A stretch of 36,758 bases of DNA from the IMG/VR virus record IMGVR_UViG_3300023109_000057, positions 1 through 36,758 of that record. One strand, 5' to 3'. This DNA comes from a virus. Below, one piece after another: positions 9,860 to 26,577 of this stretch. Position 1 is the first letter of the stretch, and every line of letters begins with the position of its first letter. The notes beneath the pieces were generated by a model. That model had not been told where the DNA came from. It did not search any database and saw only the letters and a list, made by a program, of their open reading frames with translations. Both the position numbers and the translations under genes were made by a program.

Positions 9860-10237
9860 ATGCAAGAATACACAGTAAAAGTAGAAGACAATGGTGATAA
9901 GTCTTGGTATCAAAATGGTAAGCGCCATCGTGAAGACGGTCCTGCTATTGAATATGCTGATGGTGATAAGTATTGGTATCAAAATGGTAAACGTCACCGT
10001 CTAGACGGTCCTGCTTGTGAATGGGCTAATGCATATAAGTTTTGGTATCAAAATGGTAAACGTCACCGTCTAGACGGTCCTGCTGTTGAATATGCTGATG
10101 GATATAAGGCTTGGTATATTGAAGGTAAAAAACTTACCGAAGAAGAGTTTAATAATCGTAATAAAGTCGAAGTAACTCTCGAAGATATCGCCGAAGCAAT
10201 GAACATCGATGTTGACAAACTTCGTATTAAGGAATAA
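9860..10237 (+). CDS. repeat protein with WYQNGKRHRxDGPA units, copy A
   Basis: A 125-aa protein made of about three and a half repeats of roughly 23 residues with consensus D(G/A)xKxWYQNGKRHRxDGPAxE(Y/W)A, ending in WYIEGKKLTEEEF and a conserved C-terminal helix region (EVTLEDIAEAMNIDVDKLRIKE). The repeat resembles MORN-like/YwqK-type repeats found in phages and bacteria, which form curved beta-hairpin arrays; the biochemical role is unknown. The next gene is a paralogue with the same N- and C-termini and one more repeat. The start is fixed by a GGAACACTGATATAAT motif ending 6 nt before the ATG. Its repeats probably expand and shrink by recombination. Confidence 0.75.
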   Translation: MQEYTVKVEDNGDKSWYQNGKRHREDGPAIEYADGDKYWYQNGKRHRLDGPACEWANAYKFWYQNGKRHRLDGPAVEYADGYKAWYIEGKKLTEEEFNNRNKVEVTLEDIAEAMNIDVDKLRIKE

Positions 10238-10241
10238 TATT

Positions 10242-10691
10242 GTGCAAGAACAAAACGGAATGGTAGATGACAACGGTGATAAGTTTTGGTATCAAAACGG
10301 TAAGCGTCATCGGTTAGATGGACCTGCTATTGAATATGCTAATGGCACTAAGGGTTGGTATCAAAATGATAAGCTTCATCGCGAGGATGGGCACGCCATT
10401 GAGTATGCTAATGGCGCTAAGGGTTGGTATCAAAATGATAAGCTTCACAGGCTAGATGGACCTGCTGTTGAACATGGCGATGGCTTTAAGGCCTGGTATC
10501 AAAATGACAAGCGTCATCGTGAGGATGGACCTGCTTGTGAATATGCTGATGGTGATAGGTATTGGTTTATTGAAGGTAAAGAGCTTACCGAAAAAGAATT
10601 TAACGATAGAAACAACAAAGTCGAAGTTACTCTTGAGGACATTGCTAAAGCTATGAATATCGATGTTGATAAGCTTCGTATTAAGGAATAA
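10242..10691 (+). CDS. repeat protein with WYQN(G/D)KxHRxDGPA units, copy B
   Basis: Tandem paralogue of the preceding gene, 149 aa from a GTG start. That GTG lies 4 bp after the upstream stop and gives VQEQNGMVDDNGDKFWY, aligning with MQEYTVKVEDNGDKSWY of copy A; an in-frame ATG at 10209 inside copy A is less likely. It has about four and a half repeats, some with WYQNDK in place of WYQNGK and one DGHA in place of DGPA, followed by WFIEGKELTEKEF and the same C-terminus, ending in MNIDVDKLRIKE. The near-identical C-terminal segments and divergent middle repeats point to duplication followed by repeat turnover. Function unknown. Confidence 0.75.
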   Translation: MQEQNGMVDDNGDKFWYQNGKRHRLDGPAIEYANGTKGWYQNDKLHREDGHAIEYANGAKGWYQNDKLHRLDGPAVEHGDGFKAWYQNDKRHREDGPACEYADGDRYWFIEGKELTEKEFNDRNNKVEVTLEDIAKAMNIDVDKLRIKE

Positions 10692-18667: not shown

Positions 18668-18675
18668 TATAAATA
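18668..18675 (+). promoter_or_regulatory. T4-type late promoter of the tagged-protein block
   Basis: TATAAATA, an exact late box, with predicted start near 18681 and a short leader before the ATG at 18695. It is the only late box seen in an intergenic position before 25902, so it may drive the whole run of genes from 18695 to 25894. Confidence 0.7.
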
Positions 18676-18694
18676 GAATTGAATACTACACACG

Positions 18695-20248
18695 ATGGGA
18701 AAAATGCTAGAATTTAAAGATTATATAACAGAAGACATATCAACCGGATCTCTAGAAAAAGCCAAAACATTAATATTAAGATACCTTCGCAAAAAGACAG
18801 GTACTTCAAAAATGTTTGCAACTTTAGGATTAGAGAAATATAAAAATACGAATGGCGCAGGTTACGGATTACGTTTTTATGCACCAGGAAAAAAGATAGA
18901 ATCTTGGAGATTTAACTGGGTAAACGTTGGAGGTGCTAATAGTAGCAACTTAGCTTCAATAGATTTTTGGAATGGTTCTACTCAAGGACCGACATACCAC
19001 CTATCCTTTGACCGTGATGTTTCTTTAGTTAAAATTCTTCCACAAGTAGCGGATATGCTTAAATCCGGAAAGATCACAACTGGTAGATTTTCTACATATC
19101 CATCAGACATCCCACTTAACGAAGATGTAGAATTAGAATCAAGTGAAGTTTTATGCGAAGCAGTTGATCCTGATGATGCGTATGATAATGTTATATCATT
19201 AGTATCAAGTCCTGGATTCACTAAACAAAAGGTTTTTAAAGTTTGGAAAAGCGTAGGTATTAAAATATTTGATGAGCTAGAGTCTCAGAATCCTGCACTA
19301 ATTAAAAAAGTTGGTCGTCAATATATTTGGAAAGGTAAGAAAGCGGACATTAAAAAACTTTTATTACAGAAACAAACAATCCTTGATTCAATTGGTGTAG
19401 TTACTGGTAAAGTTAAAAGTGGTTCCTCGACTGAAAGATACGCTAAAGACGCGCAACTTGACGAACTAGATTCACAACGCGAAAAACTTACATATGAAAA
19501 CCAATTAAATGATCTAGAAAATCTTATTAAGATGACCGCGTCAGGTGCCTCAAATGCGTTGTTTATTGCAGGTCGAGGAGGTATAGGTAAAACATATACT
19601 GTAGAAAAAGTGTTAGGCGAAATTGGTCTTTCTGATGGACAAGGTTACTTTAAAAACACTGGTACTGCATCAGCTGCAGGTATATATTCTCTACTGTTTA
19701 AATACAAAGACGAAATCGTACTATTCGATGATTCCGACGATGCTTTAAAAGACCAAGAAGCACGAAACATGTTTAAAGCTGCAACCGATACGAAAAAGGT
19801 AAGAAAGCTAGTGTGGAATAAAATGGGTAAGAATGTCGTTGATCCAGATGAAGATATGACTGATGAGGAAATCCTTGATCAAGGGAAAATCCCACGTTAT
19901 TTTGAATTTACGGGTAAAGTCATATTCATCTCCAACTTGAAAATAGATAAGCTCGATCCTGATGGTGCAATTCGTACAAGGGCCTTTATGATTGAAATAG
20001 ATCCAACCGATGTTGAAATCTATGACTTCATGGAAACAATCGTAGACAAAATTAAATTGGATGGTGATTTGGAATTAGATTCCGCAACACGTAAAAAGAC
20101 AGTTGACTTACTTCGTAAAGGAACGTCTAAACAAACCGCTAACTTACGTAAACTGTCGCGAGCTTTGAATATGCAGGCAGGTACTATCAAATCTGGTGTT
20201 AATATTTCAGACAACGATCTATCACGAATGATTGAAACTTATGCTTAA
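18695..20248 (+). CDS. AAA+ ATPase with N-terminal capsid-targeting-like sequence
   Basis: A 517-aa protein. It begins MGKMLEFKDYITED, similar to the T4 capsid-targeting sequence (MKTYQEFIAE|A), with a fitting gp21 site after I11-T-E13. Residues 20-230 are a two-part region of unknown fold, split by L-C-E|A in SSEVLCEAVD, another possible cleavage site. The C-terminal half is an AAA+ ATPase: Walker A GRGGIGKT (293-300), Walker B VLFDDSDD (D345-D349), sensor-1 Asn in KVIFISNLK and an AIRTRA arginine-finger candidate. It is read from a late promoter and overlaps the next tagged gene. Inference: an ATPase packaged in the head and delivered with the DNA, or working in head assembly. Confidence 0.75.
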   Translation: MGKMLEFKDYITEDISTGSLEKAKTLILRYLRKKTGTSKMFATLGLEKYKNTNGAGYGLRFYAPGKKIESWRFNWVNVGGANSSNLASIDFWNGSTQGPTYHLSFDRDVSLVKILPQVADMLKSGKITTGRFSTYPSDIPLNEDVELESSEVLCEAVDPDDAYDNVISLVSSPGFTKQKVFKVWKSVGIKIFDELESQNPALIKKVGRQYIWKGKKADIKKLLLQKQTILDSIGVVTGKVKSGSSTERYAKDAQLDELDSQREKLTYENQLNDLENLIKMTASGASNALFIAGRGGIGKTYTVEKVLGEIGLSDGQGYFKNTGTASAAGIYSLLFKYKDEIVLFDDSDDALKDQEARNMFKAATDTKKVRKLVWNKMGKNVVDPDEDMTDEEILDQGKIPRYFEFTGKVIFISNLKIDKLDPDGAIRTRAFMIEIDPTDVEIYDFMETIVDKIKLDGDLELDSATRKKTVDLLRKGTSKQTANLRKLSRALNMQAGTIKSGVNISDNDLSRMIETYA

Positions 20249-21632
20249 TATTAAAACATTTCAAGCGTTTCTTACCGAAGGAACTAAACTAGCTCCAGGA
20301 GAATTGAAAAAGACTGCCACTGGAGGTCCTAATGCAGGAAAAGAACGTACGGAAATCTTATCAAATAAGATACGTAAACAAGAACCTCTTACACTCGCGA
20401 AAGGAGGAGAGTTTCAAGTTGTAGACGTACAAGGTGCATTAGCATCAATTGAACAGTTCAAAAAAGATGGCAAAAGTTTTAATTTAATCGGTAAGGATGA
20501 AACTAAAATATCTTCGTCAGATTTACTTAAAACAAAAGAATTTGGTGGAGGAGCAGGAGCTGGTGGAGGTACTGCAAGTACAGCAATTGGTGAATCAGCC
20601 CAGTGTGTTTGGATGGCAGCAATGCTCGATATTGGTCACGCAATGCCAATTGAAAGTTTTACAGATGAAGTTCTTACAAAGGCTTTTAAAAAAGTAAGTG
20701 TTGGAAAAACTCAACTTGAAGAAATTTTAGGAATTGACGAGAGTTGGAAAGTTTCATCCTATCTTACTGCACAGTATGTTATAGCGAATAGTATAATCGA
20801 AAAAGGCATGACTTTCCATCGCGATGATAACTTAATGAAAGCAATCTATTCTGCTAAAAACACAGCATTCAAGAATAACGACTTTCAACCACTCCCGGAT
20901 GATAAGTGGAATCCCGGCGATATTTGGGTTGTAGACACCGACTTTAAATTTAACGAACTCAACACTACAACAGTTGAAGATTTGAACGACGATATTCTTG
21001 ACTTATATCTCCAAAAGCGTCTGGTTGGTATTTCTCTAAAGAAAGTGTCAAAAGCTGTTAAAGGTGTTGAAAAGAATGTTCAGCGCCCGCCTGAAACTGA
21101 AGATTACATATACTCAGCAGGACACATCAAAGCGATTGTGCGCGGCGAGTGGTATACAACTAAAGCGAATTACATTACTCATAAGTATGGTCAACTTGAT
21201 ATTCGTCCTAATTCTGCGTTTGGGTCTCATAAAGTTGAGATTAAAGGTAAAGGCGCTCGAGGTGGGGGTGCATCTTGGGGTGTTATGTCCGATGCTGCAA
21301 AAAGAATCTATAGAAGACAACTCCCTAAGAATTCAGTAATCAAAAAGGAAGCTCAACTAATTGCTAAGGGAGATAAAAAGGCTATTAGTAATTTCACACA
21401 AATGCTTCAGGGTGTTGATAAAAGAATAACAGAAGACGAAGTGATAGAAAAGCTTAATGGCTTAGGTAAAAATTCTGCAGTGTGGATTCATGGTAAACTA
21501 GGTGGCTTATACGTAATTAATCTTATTTCAAAGGGCGGCATTAAAGCTAATAAGTTTATCACACAACTTATTAATTACGCTGGCAGTTCAACATCGGACT
21601 CAAGCGCATATATAATTTTAAAAGAAAAATAA
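20241..21632 (+). CDS. tagged protein, possible PD-(D/E)xK-like nuclease fold
   Basis: A 463-aa protein starting MLNIKTFQAFLTEG, the closest match here to the T4 capsid-targeting sequence, with a gp21-type site after L11-T-E13. The ATG at 20241 is used because it places this motif as in the other tagged genes; an ATG lies 9 bp upstream. A glycine-rich linker (EFGGGAGAGGGTAST) follows near residue 110, and I-G-E|S just after it is another possible cut site. WNPGDIWVVD (D227) followed by VGISLKK (S265, K267) resembles the D...(E/S)xK pattern of restriction-type nucleases, but the match is weak. The C-terminal part is alpha/beta and unrecognised. It overlaps the AAA+ gene by 8 bp and shares TAATG with the next gene. 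Confidence 0.65.
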   Translation: MLNIKTFQAFLTEGTKLAPGELKKTATGGPNAGKERTEILSNKIRKQEPLTLAKGGEFQVVDVQGALASIEQFKKDGKSFNLIGKDETKISSSDLLKTKEFGGGAGAGGGTASTAIGESAQCVWMAAMLDIGHAMPIESFTDEVLTKAFKKVSVGKTQLEEILGIDESWKVSSYLTAQYVIANSIIEKGMTFHRDDNLMKAIYSAKNTAFKNNDFQPLPDDKWNPGDIWVVDTDFKFNELNTTTVEDLNDDILDLYLQKRLVGISLKKVSKAVKGVEKNVQRPPETEDYIYSAGHIKAIVRGEWYTTKANYITHKYGQLDIRPNSAFGSHKVEIKGKGARGGGASWGVMSDAAKRIYRRQLPKNSVIKKEAQLIAKGDKKAISNFTQMLQGVDKRITEDEVIEKLNGLGKNSAVWIHGKLGGLYVINLISKGGIKANKFITQLINYAGSSTSDSSAYIILKEK

Positions 21633-22150
21633 TGAGTATACTTGAAGCAGCATTAACATTTCACAGGGATAACGATATACCGTTAGCCCAGAATATATTT
21701 CGCCCACACACTGAAAACTATTACAAACTATTTTGTAAAGCCCGCGTACTGAAAGAGTCGTTACAACTTTGCAAGTTTGATGAGTACCTTATGTCAACAG
21801 ACATTGGTGAACTTGCAATGCACGAAGGTGAAGAGGTACCCTTAGATCATCCCTTGATTGAAGCAGAATATAAAGGTAGGGAAGTTGAATTAAACGAACC
21901 AAAACGTGGTGGTAAAAAGAAATATTTTGTTTACGTTAAAAACGATAAAGGTAATATTATTAAAGTTCAGTTTGGAGATACTTCAGGTCTTAAAGCAAAA
22001 ATTGATGACCCTGCTGCTCGTAAATCATTTGCAGCTCGACACAACTGTGCAGCGAAAAAAGATAAAACAAAACCCGGATATTGGTCTTGCAATCTTCCAC
22101 GGTATGCAGATCAGCTTGGTTTAAAAGGTGGTGGAAACTTTTTTTGGTAA
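21632..22150 (+). CDS. phage protein with SFAARHNC...PRYAxxLGL domain
   Basis: A 172-aa protein in two parts. The N-terminal half includes IFRPHTENYYKLFCKARVL and STDIGELAMHEGEEVPLDHP. The C-terminal half starts EVELNEPKRGGKKKYFVYVK and runs through ARKSFAARHNCAAKKDKTKP to SCNLPRYADQLGL. The second half (two Cys, one His and many basic residues) is a domain I recall from many marine phage structural-type genes; no function is known to me. Unlike its neighbours it has no obvious capsid tag at the N-terminus. It is coupled to the upstream tagged gene by TAATG, so it is part of the same late unit. Confidence 0.7.
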   Translation: MSILEAALTFHRDNDIPLAQNIFRPHTENYYKLFCKARVLKESLQLCKFDEYLMSTDIGELAMHEGEEVPLDHPLIEAEYKGREVELNEPKRGGKKKYFVYVKNDKGNIIKVQFGDTSGLKAKIDDPAARKSFAARHNCAAKKDKTKPGYWSCNLPRYADQLGLKGGGNFFW

Positions 22151-22152
22151 TG

Positions 22153-22167
22153 GGAACGCAATATAAT
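22153..22167 (+). promoter_or_regulatory. GGAACgCATATAAT-like motif, copy 3
   Basis: GGAACGCAATATAAT, one base shorter than the other copies, with TATAAT at 22162-22167, 7 nt before the ATG at 22175. No -35 box is found (the -35 position is a T-run within the preceding gene). Confidence 0.35.
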
Positions 22168-22174
22168 ATATAAT

Positions 22175-23683
22175 ATGAATAAGCCATATACAGATAAAAT
22201 ACAAGGTAGATATAAAGTTAGAACATTCGAGTCGACTACAAATTCAGATGAACTCGTTTGGCATAGAGATAAGACCGACCGTGTTGTAACTGTTCTTGAA
22301 GGAAAGGGCTGGATGTTTCAGATGGATAATGGTGTACCTTATGAATTAGAAGAAGGTGACGTTTTGAATATTCCTAAAATGGAATACCATAGGATTTACA
22401 AAGCTGGATCTAATAATTTGGTGATAGAAATAGAAGAACCTAAATTCAAAACCTTTAAGACATATATTAGTGAAGCGTCAAAAGATGGTAAGAATACTCA
22501 TATGACACATATTGAAGATAGAGTTATCTATGGTGGTGTTAAAGGGGCGAGAGAAGCTATCCTTGCATTACGATCTTTGAGAGATATGTTATCAGGAAAC
22601 ACTAATTCTGCGACAAACGTTACGGTTAAATGGGATGGTGCACCTGCTGTTTTTGCGGGTATTGATCCATTAGATGGTAAATTCTTTGTTGCTAAAAAAG
22701 GTATTTTCAATAAAGAGCCTAAAGTGTACAAATCAGAAGCTGATGTAAGGGCTGATACATCTGGCGATTTAGCAGAGAAATTAGTTATTGCTTTTAACGA
22801 GTTAAAAGATCTAGGTATTAAAGATGTTATTCAAGGCGATATCATGTTTACTAAAGGTGACCTTAACGCTGAGACGATTGATGGTGAGAAATACATCACT
22901 TTTCAACCTAACACAATTGTTTATGCAGTACCAGCCAATTCTAAATTAGCAAAGAGTATCACATCCGCAAATCTTGGAGTAGTATGGCATACGACATATA
23001 AAGGTAAAAGCTTTGAAACAATGAAAGCATCTTTTGGTGTAAACATAAAAGGATTGAAGAAAAAACCAAGTGTATGGTATCAAGACGCTGATTTACAAGA
23101 CTTATCAGGTACAGCAACATTTACAAAATCTGATAGTGATGAGGTGACTGAGCAACTTTCGAAAGCTGGTAAAATATTTCAGAAAATTAAGTCAACAACA
23201 CTCGTTGAACTTGAAAAAACACCCGCCCTTGCTATAAAGATCGAAACCTTTAATAACACATTAGTTCGTAAAGGTGCACGAATTCAAAGCACGGCAAAAC
23301 ATGTTAACGATTTGATAGCATGGTTTAATGAAAAGTACAAAAAAGAATATGATAAGCGCAAAAGTGAAAAAGGCAAACTAAATGTTCTTCAACGTCAGGA
23401 AGAGGAAATGCGGTTTTTCTCAAAAGAAAATCGCAAGAATCTAGATATGATGTTTCAACTTATGAACGCGATCGTTGATGCTAAATTAATCATTATAAAT
23501 AAACTTGATAGATTAAAGGAAATTGATACTTTCGTAAGAACTCGTAACGGTTTTAAAGTGACTGGTTCAGAAGGATTTGTAGCAATAGACAAGAGTAAAT
23601 CTGGCGCCGTTAAATTGGTTGATAGATTAGAGTTTTCTACGAATAACTTTTCGCCTGATGTAATCAAAGGTTGGCAAAGATAA
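22175..23683 (+). CDS. cupin fused through a capsid tag to a ligase-like phage protein
   Basis: A 502-aa fusion. Residues 1-88 form a cupin: VWHRDKTDRVVTVLEG, a hydrophobic strand, ELEEGDVLNIPKMEYHRI. Then comes KTFKTYISE|AS (92-102), a nearly ideal capsid-targeting and gp21 cleavage sequence that is normally at a protein start. The remainder matches a common marine phage family (DUF6267 as I recall): NTHMTHIEDRVIYGGVKGAR, VKWDGAPAVFAG (K152, D154), FFVAKKGIFN and VIQGDIMFTKGDL (Q220-D222). The KWDG and QGDIMF pair is like motifs I and IV of ATP-dependent nucleic acid ligases, suggesting a nucleotidyltransferase fold. No internal start codon lies at the tag, so the fusion looks genuine. The C-terminal 200 residues are helical and basic. 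Confidence 0.78.
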   Translation: MNKPYTDKIQGRYKVRTFESTTNSDELVWHRDKTDRVVTVLEGKGWMFQMDNGVPYELEEGDVLNIPKMEYHRIYKAGSNNLVIEIEEPKFKTFKTYISEASKDGKNTHMTHIEDRVIYGGVKGAREAILALRSLRDMLSGNTNSATNVTVKWDGAPAVFAGIDPLDGKFFVAKKGIFNKEPKVYKSEADVRADTSGDLAEKLVIAFNELKDLGIKDVIQGDIMFTKGDLNAETIDGEKYITFQPNTIVYAVPANSKLAKSITSANLGVVWHTTYKGKSFETMKASFGVNIKGLKKKPSVWYQDADLQDLSGTATFTKSDSDEVTEQLSKAGKIFQKIKSTTLVELEKTPALAIKIETFNNTLVRKGARIQSTAKHVNDLIAWFNEKYKKEYDKRKSEKGKLNVLQRQEEEMRFFSKENRKNLDMMFQLMNAIVDAKLIIINKLDRLKEIDTFVRTRNGFKVTGSEGFVAIDKSKSGAVKLVDRLEFSTNNFSPDVIKGWQR

Positions 23684-23693
23684 AACATAAAAA

Positions 23694-25205
23694 ATGATTA
23701 AGTCGTTTAAGAAATTTAATGAAGAAAAGACGAAAGAGGTAACTTTTACCTTTGGTCGTTTCAATCCGCCTACTGTGGGTCATGGTAAGTTAATAGCAAA
23801 GGTTGCGGCTGAGGCTACCGGTAATCAATATTTTATTTATGCGTCACAATCGCAGGATGCAAAAAAGAATCCTCTTCAGTATAAAGAAAAGATTGGTGTA
23901 ATGCGTAAAATGTTTCCTAAACATGGAAGAAACATTATTGAAGATTCATCAGCAAAGACTGTTTTGCATATAGCATCGAAACTTCATGATAAAGGATTCA
24001 CTCTTTTAAAGATGATTGTCGGTTCAGATAGAATTTCTGAATTCAACAAACTACTCAAACAATACAATGGTGTTAAAGGCCGTCATGGATATTATAACTT
24101 TAAAGATGGTATAGAAATTATTTCTGCCGGGGAAAGAGATCCAGACGCAACTGGTGTAAGTGGTATGAGTGCATCAAAAATGCGTGCAGCAGTAGTTGAA
24201 GGAGATTTTAAATCGTTTACTGAAGGATTGCCAAAAGAATATGGCGAAGACATGACACTGTTTAATCTTCTCCGTAAAAGAATGGGTCTAAAAGAAGCTA
24301 CCTCGTTCCGCAAGCACATCCAATTACCAACGCTGTCACAAAAAAGAGAAAAGTATGTTTCAGGCGAAATATTCAATATTGGAGAATCTGCTATCATTGA
24401 GTCAGGCGAAACAATTATTATTTCTTCTCGTAAATCGAACTATGTTATCGACACAAATGGTAAAAAACATTTTGTTGAAAAGATAAACCCAACTTATGGC
24501 AAAGGTCTTGCTAAATCAACGAAGGACAAAAGACAAGCTCAGTTTAATAAACAAGCGAAAATGTCTGATGATAATCCAAAAGCTTATAAGCCTGCACCAG
24601 GTGATGCGAGAGCTAAAACAAAGCTTTCTAAACACACCCTCGCGTACCATAAAAAGTTTAGTAAAGACGAAGAACTAGAACAAGGAACCGATAAACTCGT
24701 TAAAGCGTATAAGAAAGATACTCCATTAGAGGAAAAAAGTATAAAGGGTCTTGAGAAAAAGTCAAAAGAGTCCGGTATTGCTTATGGTATTTTGAAAAAG
24801 GTTTTTGATAGAGGAATGGCTGCATGGAAAACCGGTCACCGTCCTGGTGCAACTCCACACCAATGGGCTTTTGCACGTGTTAATTCATTTATCACCGGTG
24901 GTAAGACTCGTACTACAGCAGATAAAGATTTATGGGCAAAACATAAAGGTAAAAAGGAATCTATTAATAGAACAACTTCAATTGATGAAGGAGAGGGTAA
25001 ATATAAAGGTGAAACGTGGGAAGATGGATTTAAACGACGTGTGGTTAAAACATCAGATCCTAAACACTTAGAAAAAGGTTATAAGTGGAGAATAAAAGGT
25101 AAGGAACGTGATGAGATTTCAATTAAACTTTACAAAGAAAAACCAGACTTTAAAGAGTATAGTAAACAGATGAAACGTGTAGCTGGCCACGAGTTTGGTG
25201 CTTAA
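23694..25205 (+). CDS. nucleotidyltransferase (NMNAT-like) with phage C-terminal modules
   Basis: A 503-aa multidomain protein. It begins MIKSFKKFNEEKTKE, a weaker capsid-tag-like start. Residues 16-190 are a HIGH-type nucleotidyltransferase: FTFGRFNPPTVGHGKLI (T27, H30), YKEKIGVMRKMFPKH, IVGSDRISEF and GMSASKMRAAVVEGD, the layout of nicotinamide-nucleotide and pantetheine-phosphate adenylyltransferases. L-K-E|A at 'MGLKEATSF' could be a gp21 cut between domains. Three small modules follow that recur in marine phage proteins: AKSTKDKRQAQFNKQAKM (about 273), LEKKSKESGIAYGILKKVFD with WKTGHRPGATPHQWAFARVN (345-425), and GETWEDGFKRRVVKTSDPKH (438-503). The substrate cannot be told; NMN adenylylation (NAD+ synthesis) is the leading option. 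Confidence 0.75.
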   Translation: MIKSFKKFNEEKTKEVTFTFGRFNPPTVGHGKLIAKVAAEATGNQYFIYASQSQDAKKNPLQYKEKIGVMRKMFPKHGRNIIEDSSAKTVLHIASKLHDKGFTLLKMIVGSDRISEFNKLLKQYNGVKGRHGYYNFKDGIEIISAGERDPDATGVSGMSASKMRAAVVEGDFKSFTEGLPKEYGEDMTLFNLLRKRMGLKEATSFRKHIQLPTLSQKREKYVSGEIFNIGESAIIESGETIIISSRKSNYVIDTNGKKHFVEKINPTYGKGLAKSTKDKRQAQFNKQAKMSDDNPKAYKPAPGDARAKTKLSKHTLAYHKKFSKDEELEQGTDKLVKAYKKDTPLEEKSIKGLEKKSKESGIAYGILKKVFDRGMAAWKTGHRPGATPHQWAFARVNSFITGGKTRTTADKDLWAKHKGKKESINRTTSIDEGEGKYKGETWEDGFKRRVVKTSDPKHLEKGYKWRIKGKERDEISIKLYKEKPDFKEYSKQMKRVAGHEFGA

Positions 25206-25225
25206 AAATTAATGCGTGCAAAAAA

Positions 25226-25516
25226 ATGAATAATTCTGAAAAAACAAGATTAGATCGAATTGAAGAGAAGATTGACAAAATGGCAGAAGCAGTCATTGCG
25301 TTAGCCCGCGCAGAAGAGAAGATAAGTAATCTCGATGAAACTACACGAATCACTTTAAAAAGAATGGTGCAATATGATGAAAGAATCCGCAATCTTGAAC
25401 AAGTGCAAGCAGATAACACAACGACAATAAGAACCATAAGATCAATTGTGTGGACATTCGTTTCAGGTATAATTACTGCGATATGTGGCATTCTTGCATG
25501 GATAATAAAGGAGTAA
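25226..25516 (+). CDS. coiled-coil protein with C-terminal membrane anchor (XhlA-like layout)
   Basis: A 96-aa protein. The first 60 residues are a heptad-rich coiled coil (RLDRIEEKIDKMAEAVIALA and beyond), followed by a predicted membrane helix WTFVSGIITAICGILAWII at the C-terminus with a short KE end. This layout matches the XhlA/haemolysin-like proteins of phage lysis modules and other small tail-anchored phage proteins; sequence alone does not fix the role. It lies in the late block between the tagged nucleotidyltransferase and a tagged basic protein, so late expression is likely. It could be a holin-associated or spanin-type factor, or a virion membrane-contact protein. Confidence 0.6.
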   Translation: MNNSEKTRLDRIEEKIDKMAEAVIALARAEEKISNLDETTRITLKRMVQYDERIRNLEQVQADNTTTIRTIRSIVWTFVSGIITAICGILAWIIKE

Positions 25517-25519
25517 AAA

Positions 25520-25894
25520 ATGAAAAATAAAACATTTAAAGAATTTTACCTAACAGAGAAACCATTAACGCCTTCTCAGAGAATAGCTAGAAGTAGGTTA
25601 ATGAAAAGGTTAGCACCCAAGCTCAAATTAAAACGTAAGCTTGCGATGAAGAAAAAGGCTTCGTCTGAAACAATAAAAAAACGCGCTGAAAAGAAAGCAA
25701 AGGATGTACTCCGTAAAAAGTTTACACCAGACGGAATGAATTACGCCAATTTGTCCTTTTCACAAAAGGCTGTAATAGAGAAAAAACTTGAAAAGAAAAA
25801 GGGCGCAATTAAAAAAATAGCAAGAAAACTTATTAAACAACTTAAGCAGGCGGAAGCCGATAGATTAAAGCAACTAAAAAACACGCAAAAATAA
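25520..25894 (+). CDS. very basic, capsid-tagged internal-protein candidate
   Basis: A 124-aa protein beginning MKNKTFKEFYLTEK, with a capsid-targeting-like motif and L11-T-E13 as the likely gp21 site. About one third of residues are Lys or Arg (42 of 124), in long helical runs such as LKLKRKLAMKKK and IEKKLEKKKGAIKKIARKL. The family, with its LSFSQKAVIEKKLEKKKGA segment, is to my recollection widespread in marine T4-like phages. The combination of tag and charge fits T4 internal proteins, which are packed with DNA in the head and injected. It starts 3 bp after the coiled-coil gene and ends just before a late box. Confidence 0.7.
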   Translation: MKNKTFKEFYLTEKPLTPSQRIARSRLMKRLAPKLKLKRKLAMKKKASSETIKKRAEKKAKDVLRKKFTPDGMNYANLSFSQKAVIEKKLEKKKGAIKKIARKLIKQLKQAEADRLKQLKNTQK

Positions 25895-25901
25895 CAAAAA
25901 C

Positions 25902-25909
25902 TATAAATA
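25902..25909 (+). promoter_or_regulatory. T4-type late promoter on a start codon
   Basis: TATAAATA with only 5 nt to the ATG at 25915. With the T4 geometry the transcript would begin on that A, giving a leaderless late mRNA. Confidence 0.7.
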
Positions 25910-25914
25910 GAAAT

Positions 25915-26577
25915 ATGAAATCACATGACAAAATCACAATGTCCATAGCACAAGCTGTGGAACAGGTATTCGAAAACAATTCAGACTTCGTTGATCTGCA
26001 TTCTATAGACGCAAATAAACGAAGAGGCTCTGAACCTCTTACAGAAAAAGACATTGATGAAGCTAATGAATTTACGAAGGCGGCGGCAAAGGCTGCAGTG
26101 GCTGGTGATAAAGACTTTGAATTTGATGGTAAATCATATCCAACTGAAATGGATGTAGATGTAGCTAAGAAAATCCTCGGTGAATCTGTTTCTGTTAATG
26201 AAGCAATTGATTTTAGCAAAGTTAATGACGATCAGCTTAAGGGTTGGCTTAAAGTGTTTAAAACCCACACAGGTAACCCATGGAGTGGATTTAAGGATGA
26301 TGTTAAGCGAGCTGAAAAGGAAGCTAAAAAACGTGGTCTTGAAGAATCAGTTGATCTTGAAGAGTCGCTAGCAATAAAAAAGATTGATAAAATCACCAAC
26401 ATGCTCGACTCTCTTGAAATTGCACTGCGACCTAAAGGCAACGTAAACAAACTAGTCAACAAAGAGCTTGAAGGCAATTACGATAATGACTTTAAGATCG
26501 TGTTTGATTATATAACTGCTGCTTCAGCAAAATGGGAAGATGAAGTAGTGTTTGATCTGCATAATCAGCAGATCTAA
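25915..26577 (+). CDS. hypothetical late protein, 220 aa, with internal cleavage-like sites
   Basis: I do not recognise a named function. The N-terminal part is helical (SIAQAVEQVFENNSDFVDL), followed by an alanine-rich helix (EANEFTKAAAKAAVAGDKD) and FEFDGKSYPTEMDVDVAKKI, a motif I associate with small phage head-related proteins. V-N-E|A in SVNEAIDF and L-E-E|S in DLEESLAI fit the prohead protease rule and separate the protein into three segments. The second segment has a helical KVNDDQLKGWLKVFKTHTGN. The start at 25915 sits at the predicted start of the late promoter at 25902; an ATG at 25939 is the alternative if leaderless translation does not occur. Confidence 0.65.
   Translation: MKSHDKITMSIAQAVEQVFENNSDFVDLHSIDANKRRGSEPLTEKDIDEANEFTKAAAKAAVAGDKDFEFDGKSYPTEMDVDVAKKILGESVSVNEAIDFSKVNDDQLKGWLKVFKTHTGNPWSGFKDDVKRAEKEAKKRGLEESVDLEESLAIKKIDKITNMLDSLEIALRPKGNVNKLVNKELEGNYDNDFKIVFDYITAASAKWEDEVVFDLHNQQI

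Follow-up and report, generated by a model that had tools for sequence, protein, structure and literature searches.

The internal proteins IPI, IPII and IPIII of bacteriophage T4, and Alt, its one known enzyme cargo, carry an N-terminal capsid-targeting leader with a site for the prohead protease gp21. The T4 record gives this leader as MKTYQEFIAE/A in IPII and IPIII and as MKTFKEF...ITE/A in IPI (a slash marks the cut point here and below). In IPIII, residues 4 and 7 serve in targeting and residues 8 and 10 in processing, and gp21 cleaves after L/I-x-E (reviewed in PMC9026906). We analyzed the viral contig IMGVR_UViG_3300023109_000057, a complete record of 36,758 bases (the window), in which a block of genes at positions 18695-25894 encodes an AAA+ ATPase-like protein (AAA), a protein here called NUC, a ligase-like nucleotidyltransferase, an NMNAT-like protein and a very basic protein (BAS), among others (Table 1). 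The block is probably a run of late genes, from a T4-like phage of Kyanoviridae type, encoding products with T4-style capsid-targeting leaders.

The likeness to T4 lies in the chemistry and spacing of the leader, its presence across unrelated proteins, the gp21-type site, the late promoter and the basic cargo. By contrast, this locus has larger proteins as its cargo (AAA+, ligase-like and NMNAT-like among them), unrelated in sequence to the T4 internal proteins; the genes are grouped within the replication region, and fused modules retain cleavage-type sites between them. The cyanophages S-SM1, S-SZBM1 and S-SCSM1 encode a homologous NMNAT in the same place, between gp41/mazG and gp61, with the same leaders, and S-SCSM1 also encodes a NUC homologue; neither the AAA nor the basic family is reported from them, and their DUF6267 proteins lack the leader. 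Virion-associated enzymes of these kinds are known among these three phages, S-CREM2 and S-CRM01. Papers on enzymes in cyanophage virions (NMNAT, kinase, SAM hydrolase, Cas9-like) report detection only, leave contamination open and describe no targeting signal. In the open-access texts searched, capsid targeting and cyanophages co-occur in one reference title only, and none ties such tags to marine T4-like phages. The giant phages phiKZ and SPN3US likewise package many proteins with propeptides cut after Glu by prohead proteases, but the protease is diverged and the propeptides and cargo are different, a distinction drawn from their description. Polyvalent proteins (PMC5512222) also combine several disparate domains in one polypeptide that is predicted to be packaged and injected. 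Here, Pfam scans found cupin-ligase and NMNAT-DUF5824 fusions and no MPTase, MuF or portal domain; the modules are mostly separate genes, and where they are fused the prohead protease is proposed to separate them.

Residues 4, 7, 8 and 10 of IPIII correspond to P7, P4, P3 and P1, the positions conserved in the leaders of this locus. Aromatic residues at P7 and P4, Ile or Leu at P3 and Glu at P1 are found in AAA and NUC, in BAS with one inserted residue, and in the ligase-like protein at its internal junction. The leaders that the preliminary description had located at the N-termini of AAA, NUC and BAS are present in the open reading frames, as are the internal KTFKTYISE/AS of the ligase-like protein, with Glu at residue 100, and the weaker form in the NMNAT-like protein, which has no Ile or Leu at P3. 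The weight given to Glu falling exactly at residue 13 was misplaced. It is a coincidence, because the Glu lies at about residues 9-14 among relatives while the internal spacing stays conserved. The mechanical reading frame of NUC starts with a TTG at 20232, and the relatives favour the ATG at 20241.

Relatives were collected from IMG/VR and representatives were made non-redundant via shared 4-mers. A strict motif, [FY]xx[FYH][LIVMF]xE within residues 2-22, was then counted against shuffles of the same residues. Two of the 52 called genes of the window carry it (0.15 expected), as do 11 of 14 AAA (0.04 expected), 22 of 40 NUC (0.17) and 18 of 28 BAS proteins (0.07). In the NMNAT-like family the strict form is found in 13/53 (0.89 expected) and a loose form in 46/53 (6.1 expected); other members carry full-length leaders such as FGQFITE and FSQYLTE, the window member being shortened. 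The strict motif was absent from the control families uvsX, gp41, nrdB, the 18182 metalloprotease-like protein, 21632, 25226, 25915, 26644 and 27015. The search across related families that had been suggested earlier thus finds the leader to be widespread in the AAA, NUC, BAS and NMNAT-like families. Among 64 motif-picked leaders, P7 is Phe in 63 and P3 is Leu or Ile in 58, a composition tighter than the motif itself demands. Phe7 never varies across the NUC alignment (36/36) and Glu13 is present in at least 90%, with some members only 27% identical to the window protein. The AlphaFold2 model of NUC assigns residues 1-13 a predicted local distance difference test (pLDDT) score below 50 and is confident over the remainder, as expected of a detachable leader.

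The same leader is common to five otherwise unrelated families in the window and to different sets of proteins in Melnitz, C48C1, S-CREM2 and S-CRM01; unrelated proteins share it in Syn9 and DLP_6 as well. Melnitz has MQGFKTFLSEA and MLTLINFSKYITED, and MLTLINFSKYITE on its DUF6267 protein; C48C1 has MMLDFKNFITEQ, MLSFKQFVSEV and MITFKKYLEEK; S-CRM01 has MISFDQFLSEK on a kinase and MKKLDQFLTEK. Homologues lacking the leader begin at the start of the domain. The ligase-like proteins of S-SZBM1 and S-PM2 open with MAKNTHLEHLED or MATQNKHLEHLED, and Syn9 gp182 (NUC) opens with MAKLSKTDLTK directly after a stop codon. Judged from these N-termini, the leader is a discrete module placed on different proteins in different phages. 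Gene 2 of Melnitz (L002 82-1131), a RimK-like ATP-grasp protein, has KFSQFITEE at its N-terminus and is possibly another packaged enzyme.

A second class of N-terminal leader was also encountered. Four adjacent genes of the related genome G001 (L241-L242, 131855-133080), adjoining two genes with the first class of leader, open with MNLSNKSxxLEDAARGILEG or a near form and then diverge, and several genes of another relative, G002 (L244, 12920-16962), open with MNNFxYxxDPLxxAAxxIL. The protein at 25915-26577 of the window (MKSHDKITMSIAQAVEQVFEN) fits this class. The corresponding motif is counted once in the window, four times in G001 and five times in G002, with 0.02, 0.09 and 0.33 expected.

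T4-type gp21 and gp23 are present in G001, G002 and Melnitz, and a profile search recovered both genes in G001-G003. The half-sites of these proteins, with cut points read from sequence, are EYITE/A and AFLSE/A in Melnitz, NYLTE/T and QYLNE/A in G001, and RYISE/A and AYLAE/G in G002. A prediction of gp21 sites had been proposed in the preliminary description, and the half-sites of the relatives match those of the leaders. T4 NrdC.10, a distant relative of AAA, was considered as its tagged ancestor and rejected, its N-terminus having no leader.

Tagged homologues are reported from virions. Sullivan et al. 2010 (PMC3037559) found the cytidylyltransferase family T4-GC190 in virions of S-SM1; from its record, the S-SM1 member is a homologue of the window NMNAT-like gene and begins MKKFSAFLNEA. 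Virions of S-SZBM1 hold its NMNAT, with the N-terminus MRFRQFIIEA, and the untagged ligase-like neighbour _141 is not among the virion table rows listed (PMC9146016). The S-SCSM1 record labels genes 89-93, 95 and 97, at the position of the window block, as virion proteins. These include the NMNAT (gene 91, MKSFLQFLKEA) and the NUC homologue (gene 90, E 8e-5 to the window protein). In S-CREM2 the motif occurs in 5 of 28 virion proteins outside the capsid and tail vs 1 of 167 undetected proteins (Fisher p = 2.4e-4; Table 3, PMC10665884). The tagged virion enzymes of this phage are a SAM hydrolase, a kinase and an NMNAT, tagged N-terminally, and a Cas9-like protein with the motif at residues 19-25. 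Three tagged virion proteins, the SAM hydrolase, the Cas9-like protein and the APH/ChoK-like kinase, are encoded near each other on the minus strand (genes 6, 12 and 14, L009 3837-12846), an arrangement pointing to packaged anti-restriction or host-modifying enzymes. Separately, the 69-aa virion protein of S-SCSM1 gene 93 (L257 5627-5836) has a leader-like C-terminal end, RTFKEFLEYIE.

It could be argued that the leaders recruit these proteins to the prohead core for assembly or scaffolding, and that the proteins act, or are broken down, as the head matures without ever reaching the host. T4 core proteins share these cleavage signals, and the head loses most of the resulting fragments; the leaders also fit the features of core binding. 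The recovery of tagged homologues in purified virions, and the appearance of the proteins as folded enzymes with intact motifs, e.g. the KxDG motif of the ligase-like protein, make this explanation unlikely.

Several modules of the block occur as separate tagged proteins in some phages; in other phages they follow another domain within one fused protein. The fusions retain an [FYLIVM]xE site just before the ligase-like module in 20/20 distinct junctions (30% of control windows), at the AEYxG module in 12/12 (15%) and at the C-terminal GFKRR module in 16/17 (11%). The middle NMNAT module has the site in 16/16, but 60% of control windows do as well, and this count is uninformative. The junction sites of the window are cupin-YISE/AS, PLIE/AEY and SIDE/GEG. 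The ligase-like module occurs with two different fusion partners, the cupin and another upstream protein, and the site is kept in both. A search for an internal start of the ligase-like module in the window gave TTG/GTG codons only, at residues 82-83, with no convincing ribosome site. Because no clear internal start was found, cleavage at the junction is preferred over internal initiation at these codons. An additional function of gp21, the separation of modules that are fused, is plausible.

The known T4 late promoter element, TATAAATA, lies upstream of AAA in 10 of 14 non-redundant relatives (0.38 expected) and of NUC in 19 of 40 (0.60 expected), and never ahead of uvsX, gp41 or the metalloprotease-like gene in that set. 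In G001 and G002 it precedes the portal, gp21, neck and tail genes, and in G001 four tagged genes each have their own copy. Across the whole window the count of ATAAATA is not above chance, so the signal lies in its position ahead of the tagged genes; a sigma-70 promoter scan gave no excess over shuffles. These upstream sequences support late expression of the block from a T4-type late promoter. The capsid-targeting reading of the preliminary description is thus backed by four independent lines: the match to the T4 capsid-targeting sequence, the gp21/gp23 half-sites, the late promoters and the virion mass spectrometry of tagged cyanophage homologues.

The same data bear on a different role for the N-terminal peptide, namely docking or localisation unrelated to packaging, for example by binding the replisome encoded nearby. 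The block does sit amid replication and recombination genes, and short aromatic peptides often dock partners. The replication proteins themselves, however, have no leader, and a late promoter precedes the block itself. An invariant Glu, and [ILV]xE sites that persist where modules are fused, are predicted of a protease site, and in S-CREM2 the leader associates with virion proteins, which leaves docking a distinctly improbable explanation. Chance convergence in AT-rich phage proteins rich in Lys, Phe, Leu and Glu, a permissive composition in which a motif this short arises in its loose form in a few percent of N-termini, is practically ruled out by the shuffles (0.04-0.17 expected vs 11-22 observed), the empty control families and the persistence of the NUC motif to about 27% identity.

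Several points weigh against capsid targeting of this cargo. The head genes are not on the window contig, so that the phage's own gp21 and gp23 are not covered. Most BAS leaders have Lys at P1' with Pro next to it, and the window AAA has Asp at P1', vs Ala in T4; gp21 may not cut these leaders. The family and junction counts are phylogenetically non-independent, and the motif used for S-CREM2 was altered once initial results had been seen; an earlier regular expression, run on a portion of that genome, had matched 4/26 vs 3/127 (p = 0.016). The authors of the cyanophage studies allow for carry-over of enzymes in CsCl preparations. The virion-found NUC homologue of S-SCSM1 lacks a clear leader, and a number of untagged neighbours were detected too, which indicates that the leader is not the sole route into the virion. 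Virion mass spectrometry for the AAA, ligase-like and BAS families was not found in the open-access literature for any phage, this one included.

With these points considered, the locus likely represents T4 capsid targeting, a known principle, applied by marine T4-like phages to a wide, modular range of enzymes. A late sigma factor would transcribe the block from the TATAAATA element at 18668. Through its aromatic P7 and P4 residues the leader would attach to the prohead core, and the AAA+, NUC, ligase-like, NMNAT-like and basic proteins would be co-assembled within the prohead of this phage. Cleavage by gp21 is anticipated after the glutamate of [I/L]xE and, in fused proteins, also at the retained inter-module sites (cupin/ligase, LIE/A and IDE/G). 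The freed, mostly basic proteins would remain with the packaged DNA and exit with it at infection. A wider proposal, to which we give slightly less than even chances, is that Kyanoviridae-type phages employ the leader generally to load a wide and interchangeable range of enzymes (ligase-like, NMNAT-like, AAA+, kinase, SAM hydrolase, Cas9-like), with gp21 doubling as a polyprotein processor that splits the fused enzymes within the prohead, prior to delivery.

A leader tag would explain the recurrent enzymes in purified particles of related viruses. It would turn the scattered reports from cyanophage particles, which their authors could not separate from contamination, into a testable rule, by which a protein with the leader is expected in the head. 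Scanning abundant marine phages for the leader would predict the cargo delivered in the first minutes of infection, and the leader may offer a natural tag with which cargo proteins could be loaded into the heads of phages beyond T4.

Table 1. Features of the block at 18695-25894 and its flanks (window positions; a slash marks the predicted cut point).
Feature	Positions	Strand	Remarks
T4-type late promoter element TATAAATA	18668..18675	+	27 bp ahead of first block gene; same element upstream of AAA homologues
AAA+ ATPase-like protein (AAA), 517 aa, phrog_1250	18695..20248	+	distant relative of T4 NrdC.10
AAA leader MGKMLEFKDYITE, then D after cut point	18695..18733	+	capsid-targeting-like
NUC protein, 463 aa, phrog_1462	20241..21632	+	S-SCSM1 homologue is a virion protein
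NUC leader MLNIKTFQAFLTE, then G	20241..20279	+	F7 invariant (36/36), E13 in at least 90%; low pLDDT in model
172-aa protein	21632..22150	+	C-terminal module stand-alone and tagged in relatives
LIE/A module-junction site (PLIE/AEY)	21854..21862	+	E is residue 77; kept in 12/12 distinct fusions
Cupin domain fused to DUF6267 ligase-like nucleotidyltransferase, 502 aa	22175..23683	+
Internal leader FKTYISE/AS at cupin/ligase junction	22454..22474	+	E is residue 100; residues 87-100 are EEPKFKTFKTYISE
KWDG (KxDG) ligase motif I	22628..22639	+	K, D, G invariant in 26 homologues
NMNAT/cytidylyltransferase-like protein, DUF5824 C-terminal part, 503 aa	23694..25205	+	homologues seen in cyanophage virions
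Weaker NMNAT-like leader MIKSFKKFNEE/K	23694..23726	+	no I/L at P3
IDE/G site (SIDE/GEG) before C-terminal module	24981..24989	+	module stand-alone and tagged in relatives
Coiled-coil/holin-like protein, 96 aa	25226..25516	+	same gene run; untagged in all relatives
Very basic protein (BAS), 124 aa	25520..25894	+	pI 10.8
BAS leader MKNKTFKEFYLTE, then K	25520..25558	+	one extra residue between aromatic and Leu
TATAAATA-type late promoter element	25902..25909	+	ahead of 25915 gene

Family evidence supports the AAA+, ligase-like and NMNAT-like labels given in the preliminary description, and the protein at 25520 is very basic, as described. The suggestion of a possible nuclease at 20241 was not upheld, no Pfam, PDB-sequence or PDB-fold match being found. 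Structural relatives of this protein are uncharacterised phage proteins, mostly from cyanophages, and a comparison with the core fold and D...(D/E)xK site of PD-(D/E)xK nucleases showed invariant W-x-P-x-D and S-L-K residues alongside this lack of any family or fold match. The ligase-like protein contains the invariant residues K57-x-D59-G60, E371-G372 and K385 expected of its superfamily. A Foldseek search with its model returned mostly ATP-dependent DNA ligases as top PDB matches, with weak scores (best E 0.11). The motifs and the model support its placement as a probable member of the covalent nucleotidyltransferase (DNA/RNA ligase) superfamily. A defence or counter-defence identity was rejected, with no PADLOC match.

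The window as a whole corresponds to a T4-type replication region with clamp loader, RegA, DNA polymerase, UvsX, gp41 helicase, the tagged block, NrdA/NrdB, exonucleases and others. The nearest named phages belong mostly to the Kyanoviridae and comprise Methylophilales phage Melnitz, phage C48C1, Pelagibacter phage HTVC008M and cyanophages. At positions 9860-10691, among the replication genes, two adjoining proteins are made of repeats of the type KxWYQNGKRHRxDGPAxEYADG.

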